64,000 nucleotides of DNA from Halorarius litoreus (lineage in GTDB: Archaea > Halobacteriota > Halobacteria > Halobacteriales > Haloarculaceae). The position numbers were made by a program, and so were the translations under genes. The stretch is taken from NCBI RefSeq assembly GCF_024362405.1, contig NZ_CP101454.1, forward strand, positions 1,984,001-2,048,000, given 5' to 3'. Shown here piece by piece: positions 51,591-57,471 of the stretch; within the stretch, counting starts at the first letter, position 1, and each line of letters starts with the position of its first letter. Under the pieces are notes generated by a model that saw only the letters and a program-made list of their open reading frames with translations, made no database searches and was not told the origin of the DNA.

Positions 51591-52455
51591 ATGAGCGAGT
51601 GGGTGCCGACGACCTGCGTGCGGTGTGCAGTCGGCTGTGGCCACCTCCAGCGTGGCGTCGAAGAGGGGTACGGGCTGGCCGCCGTTCGCGGGGACGCGAC
51701 CCACCCGACGAACAACGGACTCGCGTGCCAGCGGGGCATCAACGAGACCTCGGACCCCGACGGCGAGTGGCTGACGCGCCCTCTGGTCAGGCGTGACGGC
51801 GACCTCCACCCGACGACGTGGGACGTGGCGCTCGACGTGGTCGAGACGGCGCTCCGGGACTCGCTCGCCGAGACCCGCGATTTGGTCGCGGTGCTCGGGA
51901 GCGGCCAGCAGACGAACGAGGCCGCCTACCTCCTCGGGAAACTCGCCCGCGGCGGCTTCGGAACGCGCCACTACGACGCCAACACGACGCTCTGTATGGC
52001 GAGCGCCGTCACCGCCTACTACGACGCGTTCGGGAGCGACGCGCCGCCGCCGACGTACGACGACATCCCCGAAGCCGAGAGCCACGTCATCTGGGGGGCG
52101 AACCCGTCGGCCGCTCACCCGGTGATGTACCGCTGGATCACCCAGAGCGCCCTCGAGGGGACGTTCATCGTCGTCGACCCGGTGGCGACCGACACGGCGC
52201 TCGACGCGGACCGCCACGTCGCGCCCACACCCGGAACGGACCTCCAGCTCGCCCGGGCGGTGCTCGCCCGGTGCGTCGAGACCGACGGCATCGACCGCGA
52301 GTTCGTGAAGGCACACACCACGGGGTTCGACGACCTCGTCGCCGACCTTCCGGACCCCGAGGCCGCCGCCGACGAAGCCGGCGTCTCGATGGCGGACGTG
52401 GACGCGCTCGCCGCGGCGCTCGACGACCCAACCCTGCTGTACTGCTCCAGTTCCG
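51591..52455 (+). pseudogene. nasA-like molybdopterin oxidoreductase, N-terminal fragment
   Basis: About 285 residues match the N-terminus of assimilatory nitrate reductase or formate dehydrogenase: the 4Fe-4S motif [12 protein letters not shown] with CQRG, then [29 protein letters not shown] and WGANPSAAHPVM. Family members usually run to about 650-750 residues; here identity stops near TLLYCSS (about 52440-52460) and the frame ends at 52511 in sequence antisense to an Lrp gene. The C-terminal cofactor domains are gone, so nitrate reduction is not possible. It stands in a nitrogen-control region. Confidence 0.82.
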
Positions 52456-52462
52456 TCGCCGA

Positions 52463-52792
52463 GCCGAAGGTCCCGACCGCAAGGAGGGTCCACTTGCCGG
52501 TCACCTCGTAGACGGTCCGGAACCGCTCGGCGTCGCGGAGGCGGTCGGCAACCGCGTCGACGGCGTCGTCGCGCATCTGGAGGCGAAACACCGCCGTCGT
52601 CCCGTAGCCCGCCCGCTCGTAGTCGACGACCGCGGTGTAGCCCTCGACGACGCCTCGCTCCTCCATCGCCTTGAGTCGGTTGCGGACGGTCGTCCCCGGG
52701 ATGCCGGTGGCGTCGGCGATCTCCAGCAGCTCGGCGCGGGCGTCCGACTGGAGCGCCGCGACGATGCGCGCGTCGGTGTCGTCGACGGTCAC
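52463..52792 (-). pseudogene. Lrp/AsnC regulator, N-terminal fragment
   Basis: The first 110 residues are a good Lrp/AsnC protein: TDARIVAALQSDARAELLEI, the HTH TGIPGTTVRNRLKAMEERG and a RAM-domain start ending KWTLLAVGTFG. After this the frame continues to 52115 with low-complexity Ser/Ala/Arg sequence that is simply the complement of the nasA fragment. About 40-50 residues of RAM domain are missing, so ligand sensing and oligomerisation should be lost, although DNA binding might survive. Its promoter carries the shared 46-bp nitrogen element. Confidence 0.82.
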
Positions 52793-52933: not shown

Positions 52934-52979
52934 CGTCCAGAATTACCCACGGTATTACGGATATAAGGTCGTTCTTCGT
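52934..52979 (-). promoter_or_regulatory. 46-bp nitrogen-gene upstream element, copy 1
   Basis: The right-hand 27 bp (52953-52979: TATTACGGATATAAGG then TCGTTCTTCGT, plus strand) are identical in all three copies. It ends 142 bp from the lrp fragment start, and 46-48 bp above a likely TATA sequence (CCAATATATGGG, 52877-52888). It also has an 11-bp inverted repeat arm CGTCCAGAATT with AATTCTGGACG at 53006-53016. Confidence 0.8.
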
Positions 52980-53130: not shown

Positions 53131-54834
53131 TCAGACCGCTTCGGGACCGGTCTTCCCCGTCCGAATCTGGTGTGCCTCCTCGACGGGGAGGATGAACACC
53201 TTCCCGTCGCCCGGTTCGCCCGTGGTTCCGGAGTCGCGGATGGCCTGTGCGACCTCCTCGGCCGGCACGTCGGCGACGACACACTCGATCTTCACCTTCT
53301 GGTGGAGGTCGACCGTGTACTCCTCGCCGCGCCACTGGCCCTTCTTCGCGGGCTGTGAGCCGCGTCCGGAGACGTTCGTGACGGTGAGCGAGGGCGCGCC
53401 GATTTCGGCGAGTCCACGCTTCACGTCGGAGAGCTTGTCCGGGCGGATGTACGCCATGACGAGCTTGATGCCGCCGTCGTTCGGGCGGCCGCCGTCGGTG
53501 CGGATGATGCCACCGTCGGCGGCGGTGTCGCGACCGCCGAACTCGGGGTAGGTGTCGACGCCGTGTTCCGAGACGTCGAGGCCCTCGCGCTCGTGGTCAG
53601 GCGAGACACGCGCCTCACCCATCGCCCGGAGCAGGCCGAAGACGGCGGCCGTGGCGGCGACCGTCCAGACGGTGATGAGGACAACGAGTGCGACCTGGCC
53701 GACGAGCGCGTCGGTGAAGAACGCGACGTCGAAGCCGCTCGCCCACGTCGGGACGGCGACGAACGGGTACAGCAGCGCGCCGAGCAGGCCCGCCGAGCCG
53801 TGAACCGGGAACACCGCACAGACGTCGTCGATCTTCAGCCGCTTCTCGACGAACTCGAAGACGATGGGGAGCTGGGCCCCGGCGATGAGGCCGACGGCGA
53901 GCGCACCCACCCACAGGATGTCGTCGGTGATCGAGGTGATACCGACGAGGCCGGCGAGCATCCCGTTGGCGACGTACAGCGTGTCGACCTTGCCGGTCTT
54001 CAGCATCGCCATTCCACCTGCCCCGATGGCCCCGGCGGCCATCCCGAGCGTCGTGGTCAGGGCGACGCGGCCGACGTAGTCGAACGCGCCGAGTGCGAGC
54101 ACGCCCTCGGCGGCCTCGCCGGAACTGAATACGGACGCGGCGGTGCCGACGTTGAAGCCGTACCAGCCGAACGCGAGGATGAGCGTCCCCAGGACGGCGA
54201 AGGTCAGCGAGTGGCCGGGGATGACGTTGACGCTCCCGTCCTCGTTGTAACGGTCGAGCCGGGGGCCGATGATCCACGCCGCGGTGAGGCCGGCGACGCC
54301 GCCCATGCCGTGGACGATGACGCCGCCCGCGAAGTCGTGGAAGCCGATGACCGACAGGATGCCGCCGGCCCACGTGAACCCGACGACGACCGGGTAGATG
54401 ACCGCCGCGAGCAGGATGGTGTACGTCACGTACGCGCGGAGCTTCGCGCGCCCCGCCACGGCGCCGGAGACGATGGTCGCCGCCGTCATGGCGAACACCG
54501 CGCCGAACAGCCAGCTGACCCAGCCGCCCGAGTCGGACGACCAGGTGGCGACGATGTCCGAGAGCGCGTACGAGCCGCCACTCGTCAGACCACCGACGAC
54601 GGTCGAGACGCCTGCCCCCACGAGGAAGAACGCGATGACGCCGATACTCCACGTCAGCATGTTCTTCGTGAGCTGGTTCGCGACGTTCTTCGAGCGCACC
54701 TGCCCCGCCTCCAGCATGGCGAAGCCGGCGTGCATGAAGAAGATGAGGAAGGTGACGGTCAACACCCACAGCAGGTTGACCCCTTCCGCGAGCGTCGCGA
54801 TGTCGACGCCCGACTGCAGGACGATACCGTTCAT
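53131..54834 (-). CDS. amt: Ammonium transporter fused to P-II protein (Amt-GlnK)
   Basis: A 567-residue in-frame fusion. Residues 1-415 form an Amt channel with 11 helices, including the [16 protein letters not shown] and [12 protein letters not shown] motifs with pore His residues. A linker (about 415-455, [15 protein letters not shown] and Gly/Asp-rich) joins a complete GlnK-type P-II domain, [20 protein letters not shown] to the end, with T-loop Tyr in [11 protein letters not shown] normally blocks Amt when glutamine/ATP status signals nitrogen sufficiency; here it is tethered. The position equivalent to Tyr46 of the T-loop is Trp (GQWRG). Paralogous amt and glnK are separate at 55.5-57.3 kb. 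Confidence 0.95.
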
Positions 54835-54975: not shown

Positions 54976-55021
54976 CGTCCAAAATAGGGTACGATATTAC
55001 GGATATAAGGTCGTTCTTCGT
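54976..55021 (-). promoter_or_regulatory. 46-bp nitrogen-gene upstream element, copy 2
   Basis: Its 27-bp core is 54995-55021 and it ends 142 bp upstream of the Amt-GlnK start, the same distance as copy 1. A possible TATA sequence (TATACATAAG, 54921-54930) lies 46 bp further toward the gene. Confidence 0.85.
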
Positions 55022-55120: not shown

Positions 55121-55546
55121 CTACAGCAGGTCGCGCTGGTCCCCCTCGACGACCGTCCGGAGCGCGTCGTTCGCGCCGACGCGGTGGACGCGGTCGTCGG
55201 TCGCCAGCCGCGCGAGGAACGCCTCGCGGGCCGTGCCGGTGGTGAACCGACAGACGGCAAGCAGGTTCTCGCTCCCGGTCAGTTCGAACACCGAGAGCGC
55301 CCCGGCGTCGCGGAGCCACGCGGCGACCGCCGGGACGTCCGGGCGTGACACCGCCAGCCGGACCAGCACCGTCCGCGCGTCGAGCGCGTCGTGGTCGACG
55401 AGCGGTGCGTACCCCCTGATGCGGCCGTCGGCTTCGAGTGCATCCAGTCGCCTCCCGAGTGTCGCGGCGAGTGAGCGCCGCCCGACAGGCTCGTCGTGGC
55501 CCCCGACCGAGGAATCCGCTCCCCGCCCGTCGGGCCGTCCGGACAC
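55121..55546 (-). CDS. Lrp/AsnC-type regulator with shortened HTH
   Basis: A 141-residue protein. Its C-terminal two-thirds is a normal RAM domain (RIRGYAPLVDHDALDARTVL, VFELTGSENLLAVCRF, DRVHRVGANDALRTVV). The N-terminal HTH is short: the recognition-helix-like AATLGRRLDALEADGR is kept, but the typical first helix DxxDRxIL is replaced by Gly/Ser-rich residues. It starts with GTG at 55546, 2 bp after the glnK stop, so it is the third gene of an amt-glnK-lrp operon. DNA binding may be altered; it could act as a partner of another Lrp. Confidence 0.8.
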   Translation of the reverse strand: MSGRPDGRGADSSVGGHDEPVGRRSLAATLGRRLDALEADGRIRGYAPLVDHDALDARTVLVRLAVSRPDVPAVAAWLRDAGALSVFELTGSENLLAVCRFTTGTAREAFLARLATDDRVHRVGANDALRTVVEGDQRDLL

Positions 55547-55548
55547 GC

Positions 55549-55896
55549 TCAGACGGCCTCGAGACCGGTCTTGCCGGTGCGGATCTGGTAGGCCGAGTCG
55601 ACGGGGAGGATGAACACCTTCCCGTCGCCCGGCTCACCGGTCTTCGCCGCCTCGCAGATGGCCTCGGCGACGTCGCTCCCCTCGATGTCCGCGACGACGC
55701 ACTCGACTTTCACCTTCTGGTGGAGGTCGACGGTGTACTCCTCGCCGCGGTACTGGCTCGTTTTCGCGGGCTGCGACCCACGACCGGAGACGTTCGTGAC
55801 GGTGAGCGAGGGTGCGCCGACCTCGGCGAGCCCACGCTTCACGTCCGCTAGTTTGTCCGGGCGGATGTACGCGATGACCATCTCGATGTCGCTCAT
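55549..55896 (-). CDS. glnK: Nitrogen regulatory protein P-II (GlnK)
   Basis: A 115-residue GlnK that senses ATP/ADP and 2-oxoglutarate and gates the ammonium channel. [18 protein letters not shown] begins the fold; the T-loop contains [21 protein letters not shown] (two Tyr, positions like 46 and 51) and the C-terminus has [19 protein letters not shown] with basic ATP-binding residues. The ATGA overlap with the amt stop shows close coupling. It is followed 2 bp later by an Lrp-type gene. Confidence 0.95.
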
Positions 55897-57275
55897 TCGG
55901 CGTCACCCCCCTCGGACGCGGTGTTGCCACCGTCGGTGCGAACTTCGTAGCCGCCGTCGGCGACCGCCGGGCGGTCGCTCCCGCTGTCGGCGGTGAACTC
56001 GGGGTAGGCGGACATGCCGTGTTCGCCCTGGTCGAGGCCGAGTTCCTCCTCCTCGGCGCTGACACGCAGGCCGATGGTCGCCTTGATGAGACCCATGACG
56101 AGCATCGTCGTCAGCACGGTCCACGTCCCGATGAGCAGGCCGCCGACGACCTGCATGATGAGCTGGTTCATCGAGAAGCCGGCCACGTCGAAGAACGGGA
56201 TGAGCATCGTGCCGATGAACCCCGCGGAGCCGTGGACGGCGAACACGCCACAGACGTCGTCGATCTTCAGGTTGTCGACGACCCAGCGGTAGACGAGCGG
56301 CGTCTGGACGCCGCCGATGATGCCGATGACGAGCGCGCCGGGCCACGAGACGTGGATACACGCGCCCGTGATGGCGACGAGGCCCGCGAGCAGGCCGTTC
56401 GCGCCGAACAGCGGGTCCGGTTTGCCCTCCCAGATGGTCGTGACCGCCGTGGAGGCGACCATGCCGGCGCCCATCGCCAGCGTGGTGTTGAGCGCGACGC
56501 GGCCGAGCGCAGCGCCGTTGAACCCACCGTCACCGGTGAGGACGGTCGCCTGCGTGCCGACGTTGAAGCCGTACCAGCCGAAGGCGAGGATGAGCGTCCC
56601 GATGACCGCGAACAGGACGCTGTGCCCCGGAATCGGCTTGGCGTTGCCGTTTTCATCGAAGCGGCCCTTTCGCGCGCCGACCATGTACGCCGCCGTGAGG
56701 CCGGCGATACCGCCCATCGCGTGGACGACGGTCGCGCCGGCGAAGTCCTTGTAGCCGACGCCGAGCGCCTCACCGAGATAGCCGGTCGAGGAGAGCAGTC
56801 CCGTGCCGCCCCACGTCGACCCGGCGACGACCGGGTAGAGCACGGCGACGAGGGCGAACGCGTAGATGACGTACGACGAGAACTTGATGCGCTCGGCGAC
56901 GGCCCCCGAGACGATGGTCGCCGCCGTCATGGCGAACACCGCACCGAACAGCCAGCCGATCCACGCGGTCGGGTCGTTGATGTACGCGAACGCCCCCGAG
57001 ATGGAGAGTTCGACGCTCGGCGAACCGAGCATCCCCGCGATGGCGGAGACGCCCGCCCCGACGAGGAAGAACACCAGTACCCCCATCGACCAGTCGACCA
57101 TGTTCTTCATCACGACGTTGCCCGCGTTCTTCGCGCGGACCTGTCCAGCCTCCAGCAGCGCGAAGCCCGGCTGCATGAAGAAGATGAGGAACGTCACGAC
57201 CAGCACCCACACCGCGTTGATGCTGTCCGCGATGGCCGTGATGTCACCCTGTAGCGGCAGGAACTCCATCATCAT
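55893..57275 (-). CDS. amt: Ammonium transporter (Amt)
   Basis: A 460-residue Amt with 11 helices that conducts NH3/NH4+. [23 protein letters not shown] is interrupted only by the first helices; [17 protein letters not shown] and [12 protein letters not shown] carry the pore His residues, and the C-terminal tail ([15 protein letters not shown]) is the P-II interaction tail. [11 protein letters not shown] at 57275 is taken as the start, excluding a basic extension to 57362. First gene of an amt-glnK-lrp operon, with the 46-bp element about 151 bp upstream. Confidence 0.94.
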
Positions 57276-57425
57276 TCGATACCTCCGAGCGATTCGAACC
57301 AAATGTCCACGTTTTCGCTTTCGTAATCCATATTCGTACTCTCGTGTGCAGTCGATGCTCACGGAGTTCCACTATATAATGCTTCGGTTGCATGTTTCAA
57401 AATTTCCTGCGTATATTACGAACAA

Positions 57426-57471
57426 CGTCCAAAATACCACACGATATTACGGATATAAGGTCGTTCTTCGT
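57426..57471 (-). promoter_or_regulatory. 46-bp nitrogen-gene upstream element, copy 3
   Basis: Its 27-bp core is 57445-57471. Plus-strand left part CGTCCAAAATA is shared with copy 2. It ends 151 bp from the amt start and 46 bp from TATATA at 57373-57379, the likely TATA box of the amt-glnK-lrp operon. Confidence 0.85.

Follow-up and report, generated by a model that had tools for sequence, protein, structure and literature searches.

P-II proteins are diffusible hubs, and the locus described here raises the question of what such a protein does when it forms one polypeptide with an ammonium channel. The window, the whole 64,000-nucleotide stretch of the Halorarius litoreus genome that was analysed, contains a frame in which an Amt domain and a P-II (GlnK) domain are joined, and close to it a pair of separate amt and glnK genes. 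We asked whether the joined frame is a genuine gene, how widespread it is and how its two parts might work together.

The Amt-PII fusion is a genuine gene

The fusion gene and its parts are located as follows.

53131..54834, minus strand: Amt-PII fusion gene, 567 aa (one open frame, two Pfam domains in one protein)
53548..54771, minus strand: Amt domain, residues 22-429 (Pfam, residue equivalents, model and fold matches)
53464..53544, minus strand: linker, 27 aa, without a start codon, predicted mostly disordered
53134..53466, minus strand: P-II domain, residues 457-567 (Pfam, sequence and fold match to Haloferax mediterranei GlnK2)
53329..53334, minus strand: equivalents of T-loop Trp46-Arg47, W501 and R502 (alignment of haloarchaeal P-II)

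Among the open reading frames of the window, 53131-54834 (minus strand) is a single uninterrupted ATG-to-stop frame of 567 aa. Its product matched PF00909 at residues 22-429 (309 bits, profile positions 1-399 of 399) and PF00543 at residues 457-561 (84 bits, profile positions 2-102 of 102). These were its sole Pfam matches, and no kinase or cyclase output domain was detected in the protein. The NCBIfam model TIGR00836 scored 325 bits, slightly below its cut-off of 343, and no model devoted to an Amt-PII fusion was found in NCBIfam. Thus, the in-frame Amt-GlnK fusion proposed in the initial annotation was confirmed, with a complete Amt and a complete P-II domain in one frame, as was the Gly/Asp-rich character of the linker joining the Amt C-terminus to the full P-II domain (12 of 27 residues are Gly or Asp). 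A frameshift or stop in the linker, or a separate start codon for the P-II part, had been named as findings that would speak against a fusion. The linker contains no frameshift or stop, and the frame is preserved in homologues; nor does it contain an ATG, GTG or TTG codon.

We considered whether the fusion could be a frameshift, stop loss or assembly error confined to one genome. The same architecture was found in dozens of named genomes from many genera and in the nearest genome. Moreover, comparison with the nearest relatives gave dN of about 0.06-0.13 and dS of about 0.45-0.59 in both domains, and dN/dS was about 0.1-0.2 in Amt and P-II alike against close relatives. Since dN lies far below dS in both, neither domain is decaying. 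Shared architecture and purifying selection together rule out an artefact, to which we give practically no credence; the fusion is genuine.

The fusion is the norm among Halobacteria

To survey the class, PF00543 and PF00909 were searched separately in 106 near-complete, evenly drawn Halobacteria genomes, and P-II and Amt matches with identical open-frame lengths were counted as fused. Both families were present in the same 97 genomes and absent from the same 9. The genetic linkage expected of an AmtB-GlnK pair is seen here as fusion and as joint presence or absence in 106 of 106 genomes. The fusion occurred in 60 of the 97 P-II-bearing genomes and was the sole P-II and the sole Amt in 57 of these 60; only three, H. 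litoreus among them, carried another P-II in addition. The fusion had been taken for an unusual offshoot. On these counts the fusion is the class norm, and it is the combination of a fusion with an unfused operon that is rare. A class-wide search and inspection of named genomes revealed the same architecture in Haloglomus, Halobaculum, Haladaptatus, Natrinema, Haloterrigena, Halorubrum, Natronomonas, Halorussus and Natronococcus, among others. Outside Halobacteria, all P-II frames among the matches listed in a phylum-wide sample were at most 172 aa long.

Some fusions are preceded or followed by an extra free P-II gene (L117, L016/L123, L024, L130), and one genome (G068) carries one fusion, two further P-II genes and a single Amt.

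The neighbouring amt-glnK pair belongs to a different Amt clade

The second locus of the window consists of two genes.

55549..55896, minus strand: free glnK, 115 aa, with Tyr46 in the T-loop (open reading frame, Pfam)
55893..57362, minus strand: free amt, clade A (ATGA overlap with glnK, tree placement)

The two are separate genes with an ATGA overlap, as originally described, and the free amt likely starts at the ATG at 57275 rather than at the GTG at 57362. The distance of 2 kb given for this locus is only approximate: the fusion is 0.7 kb away from glnK and 1.1-2.5 kb away from amt. PF00543 has two matches in the genome in all, in the fusion and in the free GlnK. A small ORF without a Pfam match (55121-55546, minus strand) separates free glnK from the fusion. 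The homologous stretch of the nearest genome is 70% identical and itself matches the lrp-like protein at 40%; the ORF is conserved in position and is possibly a regulator lacking the HTH.

A tree of the Amt domains was divided into two strongly supported clades (100/100 in the careful tree). Clade A, which contains the free amt of the window, comprises 27 rows, none of them fused, whereas clade B comprises 110 rows, of which 88 are fused, 20 have glnK as the next gene and two are of uncertain state. The loci had been described as paralogous, and ancient paralogues they are; the free pair is not a simple counterpart of the fusion, as no fusion was found in its deeply separate Amt clade. Grouping all fused Amts in a single clade was rejected (AU test, p = 7e-8), and changes between the fused and the split state must therefore have occurred repeatedly. 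Under equal-cost parsimony on vertical descent, a fused ancestor of clade B requires 11 steps within the clade plus one earlier gain and a split ancestor 13. By this small margin, parsimony favours an ancestor of clade B that was probably fused. A tree of the P-II domain had too few columns to separate its branches.

In Haloferax, Halogeometricum and one further genome (L149), the split comes down to one in-frame stop, after which glnK starts. In the Haloferax genomes sampled, amt of clade B sits directly upstream of glnK in the same frame, with one stop codon between them. Split GlnKs of clade B often start with MSD..LPNDGGIK, which matches the end of the fused linker. RTDGG is also found in Amt tails of clade A and PNDGG in some of its GlnKs, so the linker motifs were dropped as a guide to the direction of change.

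Linker and predicted structure

Counted from the conserved HG(V/T)-x-TYP motif, the linker of 114 fused frames (window included) measured 26-67 residues with a median of 34, and was always in frame. Its length varies through repeats of an (I/L)R(T/A/S)DGG-like unit, reaching 67 residues (L015, L029, L061, L102, L139). A scan for promoters and terminators around the linker returned nothing, a result of little weight in an archaeon as the patterns were of bacterial type only.

Conceivably, the P-II part is set free by proteolysis of the linker or by an internal start, and the fusion merely fixes the stoichiometry of synthesis. The predicted disorder of the linker fits such a release, as does a report, in a reference cited in PMC8395244, that H. 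mediterranei GlnK also acts on glutamine synthetase, which would need a mobile P-II. However, start codons (ATG, GTG, TTG) are missing not only from the linker of the window but also, in 79 of 106 fusions, from the final 26 codons of the linker, and the first internal ATG lies inside strand beta1 of P-II, where a start would truncate the domain. The frame has also been preserved despite many in-frame indels in the linker. We therefore hold release of the P-II part to be unlikely.

An AlphaFold2 monomer model, built from 50 sequences (window and homologues), reached a mean pLDDT of 79.7, with mostly 60-98 in the Amt domain and below 50 at residues 420-449. In this model the Amt core is well predicted, the linker disordered and the P-II domain folded with an uncertain T-loop. 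The Amt part has the long helices expected of the Amt fold and matches AmtB; Foldseek placed it with Ks-Amt5 (6eu6), Sd-Amt1 (8qj3/8qj4), Archaeoglobus fulgidus Amt-1 (2b2f) and the AmtB of the AmtB-GlnK complex (2nuu). For the P-II part it returned H. mediterranei GlnK2 (4ozn), in agreement with the ferredoxin-like P-II fold, and the closest solved P-II by sequence is the same protein (4ozj, 205 bits).

In P-II proteins, strand beta1 runs parallel to beta2, and the T-loop stands at the end of beta2 (PMC6243067). As beta1 runs the same way as beta2, the P-II N-terminus lies on the face opposite the T-loops, and a tether attached there must go round the P-II body. The lower bound of 26 linker residues would permit such a path.

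Conserved residues of the Amt and P-II parts

The equivalents of AmtB F107, W148, D160, H168, F215 and H318 are kept in essentially all 88 fused rows, the window protein included, and the Amt C-terminal region of 17 residues is retained in the fusion. On the P-II side, R9, Q39, R47, K58, G87, D88, K90, F92 and R103 are invariant among 102 fused sequences, R47 throughout the haloarchaeal P-II set.

These residues bear on another explanation, namely that the protein is a sensor rather than a gate: the Amt part, when ammonium passes through it or occupies it, would signal to the P-II part, and the latter would act on a different protein. Two known proteins would be the precedent, Ks-Amt5 (an Amt-histidine kinase, 6EU6) and Sd-Amt1 (an Amt-diguanylate cyclase, 8QJ3/8QJ4). 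Like the fusion, both carry a C-terminal cytoplasmic signalling domain on an Amt, and they are the nearest neighbours of its Amt part by fold. Unlike the fusion, they have an output enzyme in place of a P-II plug and are described as receptors. In the fusion, every conduction residue is intact, P-II lacks an enzymatic output, and conservation extends to R47 and the Amt C-terminal region, both of which plugging requires; in 57 genomes, moreover, the fusion is the only ammonium channel. A sensor role thus appears distinctly unlikely.

One ligand position deviates. Other archaeal GlnKs use R101 as a nucleotide ligand (PMC8395244); here Gln replaces it in 102 of 102 fused and in 66 of the 68 free haloarchaeal sequences. 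The fusion therefore lacks this nucleotide contact, a class-wide variation shared by H. mediterranei GlnK2, whose structure was determined with ATP (4ozn). Because of this replacement, the ligand response may differ from that of textbook P-II. The short P-II frames among the matches listed outside Halobacteria and the loss of R101 could also be read to mean that the tether is mainly a high-salt adaptation, holding together a salt-weakened complex in which P-II stays mostly docked and its ligand switch is reduced. Yet many haloarchaea live with separate pairs, clade B has changed repeatedly between the fused and the split state, and the 2-oxoglutarate residues R9, Q39 and K58 are invariant, which leaves this explanation with very little probability.

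The T-loop sequence is KGQWRGEEY in the fusion, whereas the free GlnK of the same genome has TSQYRGEEY. The initial annotation had noted this Trp in place of Tyr at position 46 and proposed an altered nucleotide response of the fusion. The residues are as stated, although the direction is reversed: Trp46 occurs in 102 of 102 fused and 64 of 68 free haloarchaeal P-II sequences and is the norm, Tyr the exception. A change specific to the fusion is thereby ruled out, and a fusion-specific nucleotide response based on Trp46 finds no support. The first reading was hence corrected on two points, the rarity of the fusion and the meaning of Trp46. The free GlnK of the window is itself one of the four free sequences with Tyr46. 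Methanosarcina mazei GlnK, which binds glutamine synthetase, carries Ile-Tyr here, and GlnK2, which does not bind it, carries Gln-Trp (PMC10651883); the Gln-Trp of haloarchaea is like that of GlnK2. Comparison of these residues gives only a hint that haloarchaeal P-II might not bind glutamine synthetase, because H. mediterranei GlnKs are reported, in a reference cited in PMC8395244, to interact with it.

A tethered gate as the proposed mode of action

In systems of separate proteins, the T-loops of GlnK plug Amt, and 2-oxoglutarate with ATP releases GlnK (PMC3198391, PMC8395244, PMC10710835); in H. mediterranei, association of GlnK with AmtB follows ammonium shock (PMC3831643). Since both domains are complete and under purifying selection, and the channel and T-loop residues as well as the Amt C-terminal region are kept, we propose, with a probability of roughly 70%, that the fusion acts as a tethered AmtB-GlnK gate with a fixed 1:1 trimer stoichiometry. 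The plugging, the ligand switch and the trimer geometry are transferred from E. coli, A. fulgidus and H. mediterranei, where the two proteins are separate. Three chains would form the Amt trimer, and their C-terminal P-II domains would assemble below it into a single P-II trimer. Under nitrogen shortage, Mg-ATP and 2-oxoglutarate would keep the T-loops off the pores and ammonium would pass; a rise in ammonium and a drop in 2-oxoglutarate would let the T-loops with Arg47 enter the three pores and shut the channel. Tethering may make closing faster. It would also make closing independent of the amount of free GlnK, as an attached plug cannot diffuse away, and that the gate would always be local to its channel seems a reasonable reading. 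In H. litoreus, the second Amt/GlnK system could form mixed trimers or cross-dock with the fusion; H. mediterranei AmtB1 bound both GlnKs (PMC3831643).

The fusion combines two ordinary domain families and is a variant of a known regulatory pair rather than a system of a new kind. It shares its families, the Amt C-terminal region, Arg47 and the adjacency of the genes with E. coli AmtB-GlnK (2NUU, 2NS1) and with the A. fulgidus and H. mediterranei Amt-GlnK pairs. In contrast to the fusion, these pairs are separate polypeptides, and their GlnK binds and departs as a soluble trimer. H. mediterranei GlnK2 (4OZJ/4OZL/4OZN) has Trp46, Gln101 and an N-terminal LPNDGGIK resembling the end of the fusion linker, but is a free protein. 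The lactose transporter LacS likewise carries a normally soluble regulator, an EIIA-Glc-like domain, in covalent linkage (PMC10710835), although it belongs to unrelated families and its control is based on phosphorylation. A search of the open-access literature found no paper on an Amt-PII fusion.

The domain itself is a P-II; what sets it apart is its mode of action, being no soluble, diffusible trimer but covalently held on a membrane channel unless cleaved. In most fusion-bearing haloarchaea, no P-II would remain for soluble targets. We lean slightly towards the broader view that in most haloarchaea the sole P-II is covalently part of the sole ammonium channel, that P-II signalling there is a self-contained membrane gate without a soluble pool or a role at glutamine synthetase and other usual targets, and that the fused state is probably ancestral to one of the two Amt clades and was split again several times. 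The striking part is the distribution: in much of a class, P-II has become a component of a single channel. An archaeal class whose commonest P-II resides within the channel that it presumably gates, and lacks a free copy, would be a case of a hub narrowed to one dedicated partner. Fusion-only haloarchaea raise the question of how glutamine synthetase is controlled, and the fusion, as a natural assembly of AmtB and GlnK in fixed stoichiometry, lends itself to cryo-EM and transport work.

A conserved upstream element and neighbouring genes

A short element occurs three times in the window.

54994..55020, minus strand: 27-bp conserved element upstream of the fusion, with further copies at 57444-57470 and 52952-52978

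On the plus strand the element reads ATATTACGGATATAAGGTCGTTCTTCG, and one copy each precedes the lrp-like gene, the fusion and the amt-glnK pair. The genome contains no further match to its 25-bp core when up to three mismatches are tolerated. Exact copies in other genomes (L095, L138, L143) also lie upstream of fusions, apparently about 60-70 bp before a TATA-like box. The element is a candidate nitrogen-regulon site.

Further along, 51591-52511 (plus strand) encodes a truncated N-terminus of a molybdopterin oxidoreductase, nitrate reductase- or formate dehydrogenase-like, and lies tail to tail with an Lrp/AsnC gene (52115-52792, minus strand), the two frames overlapping. At this junction, it looks like a deletion took the C-termini of both.
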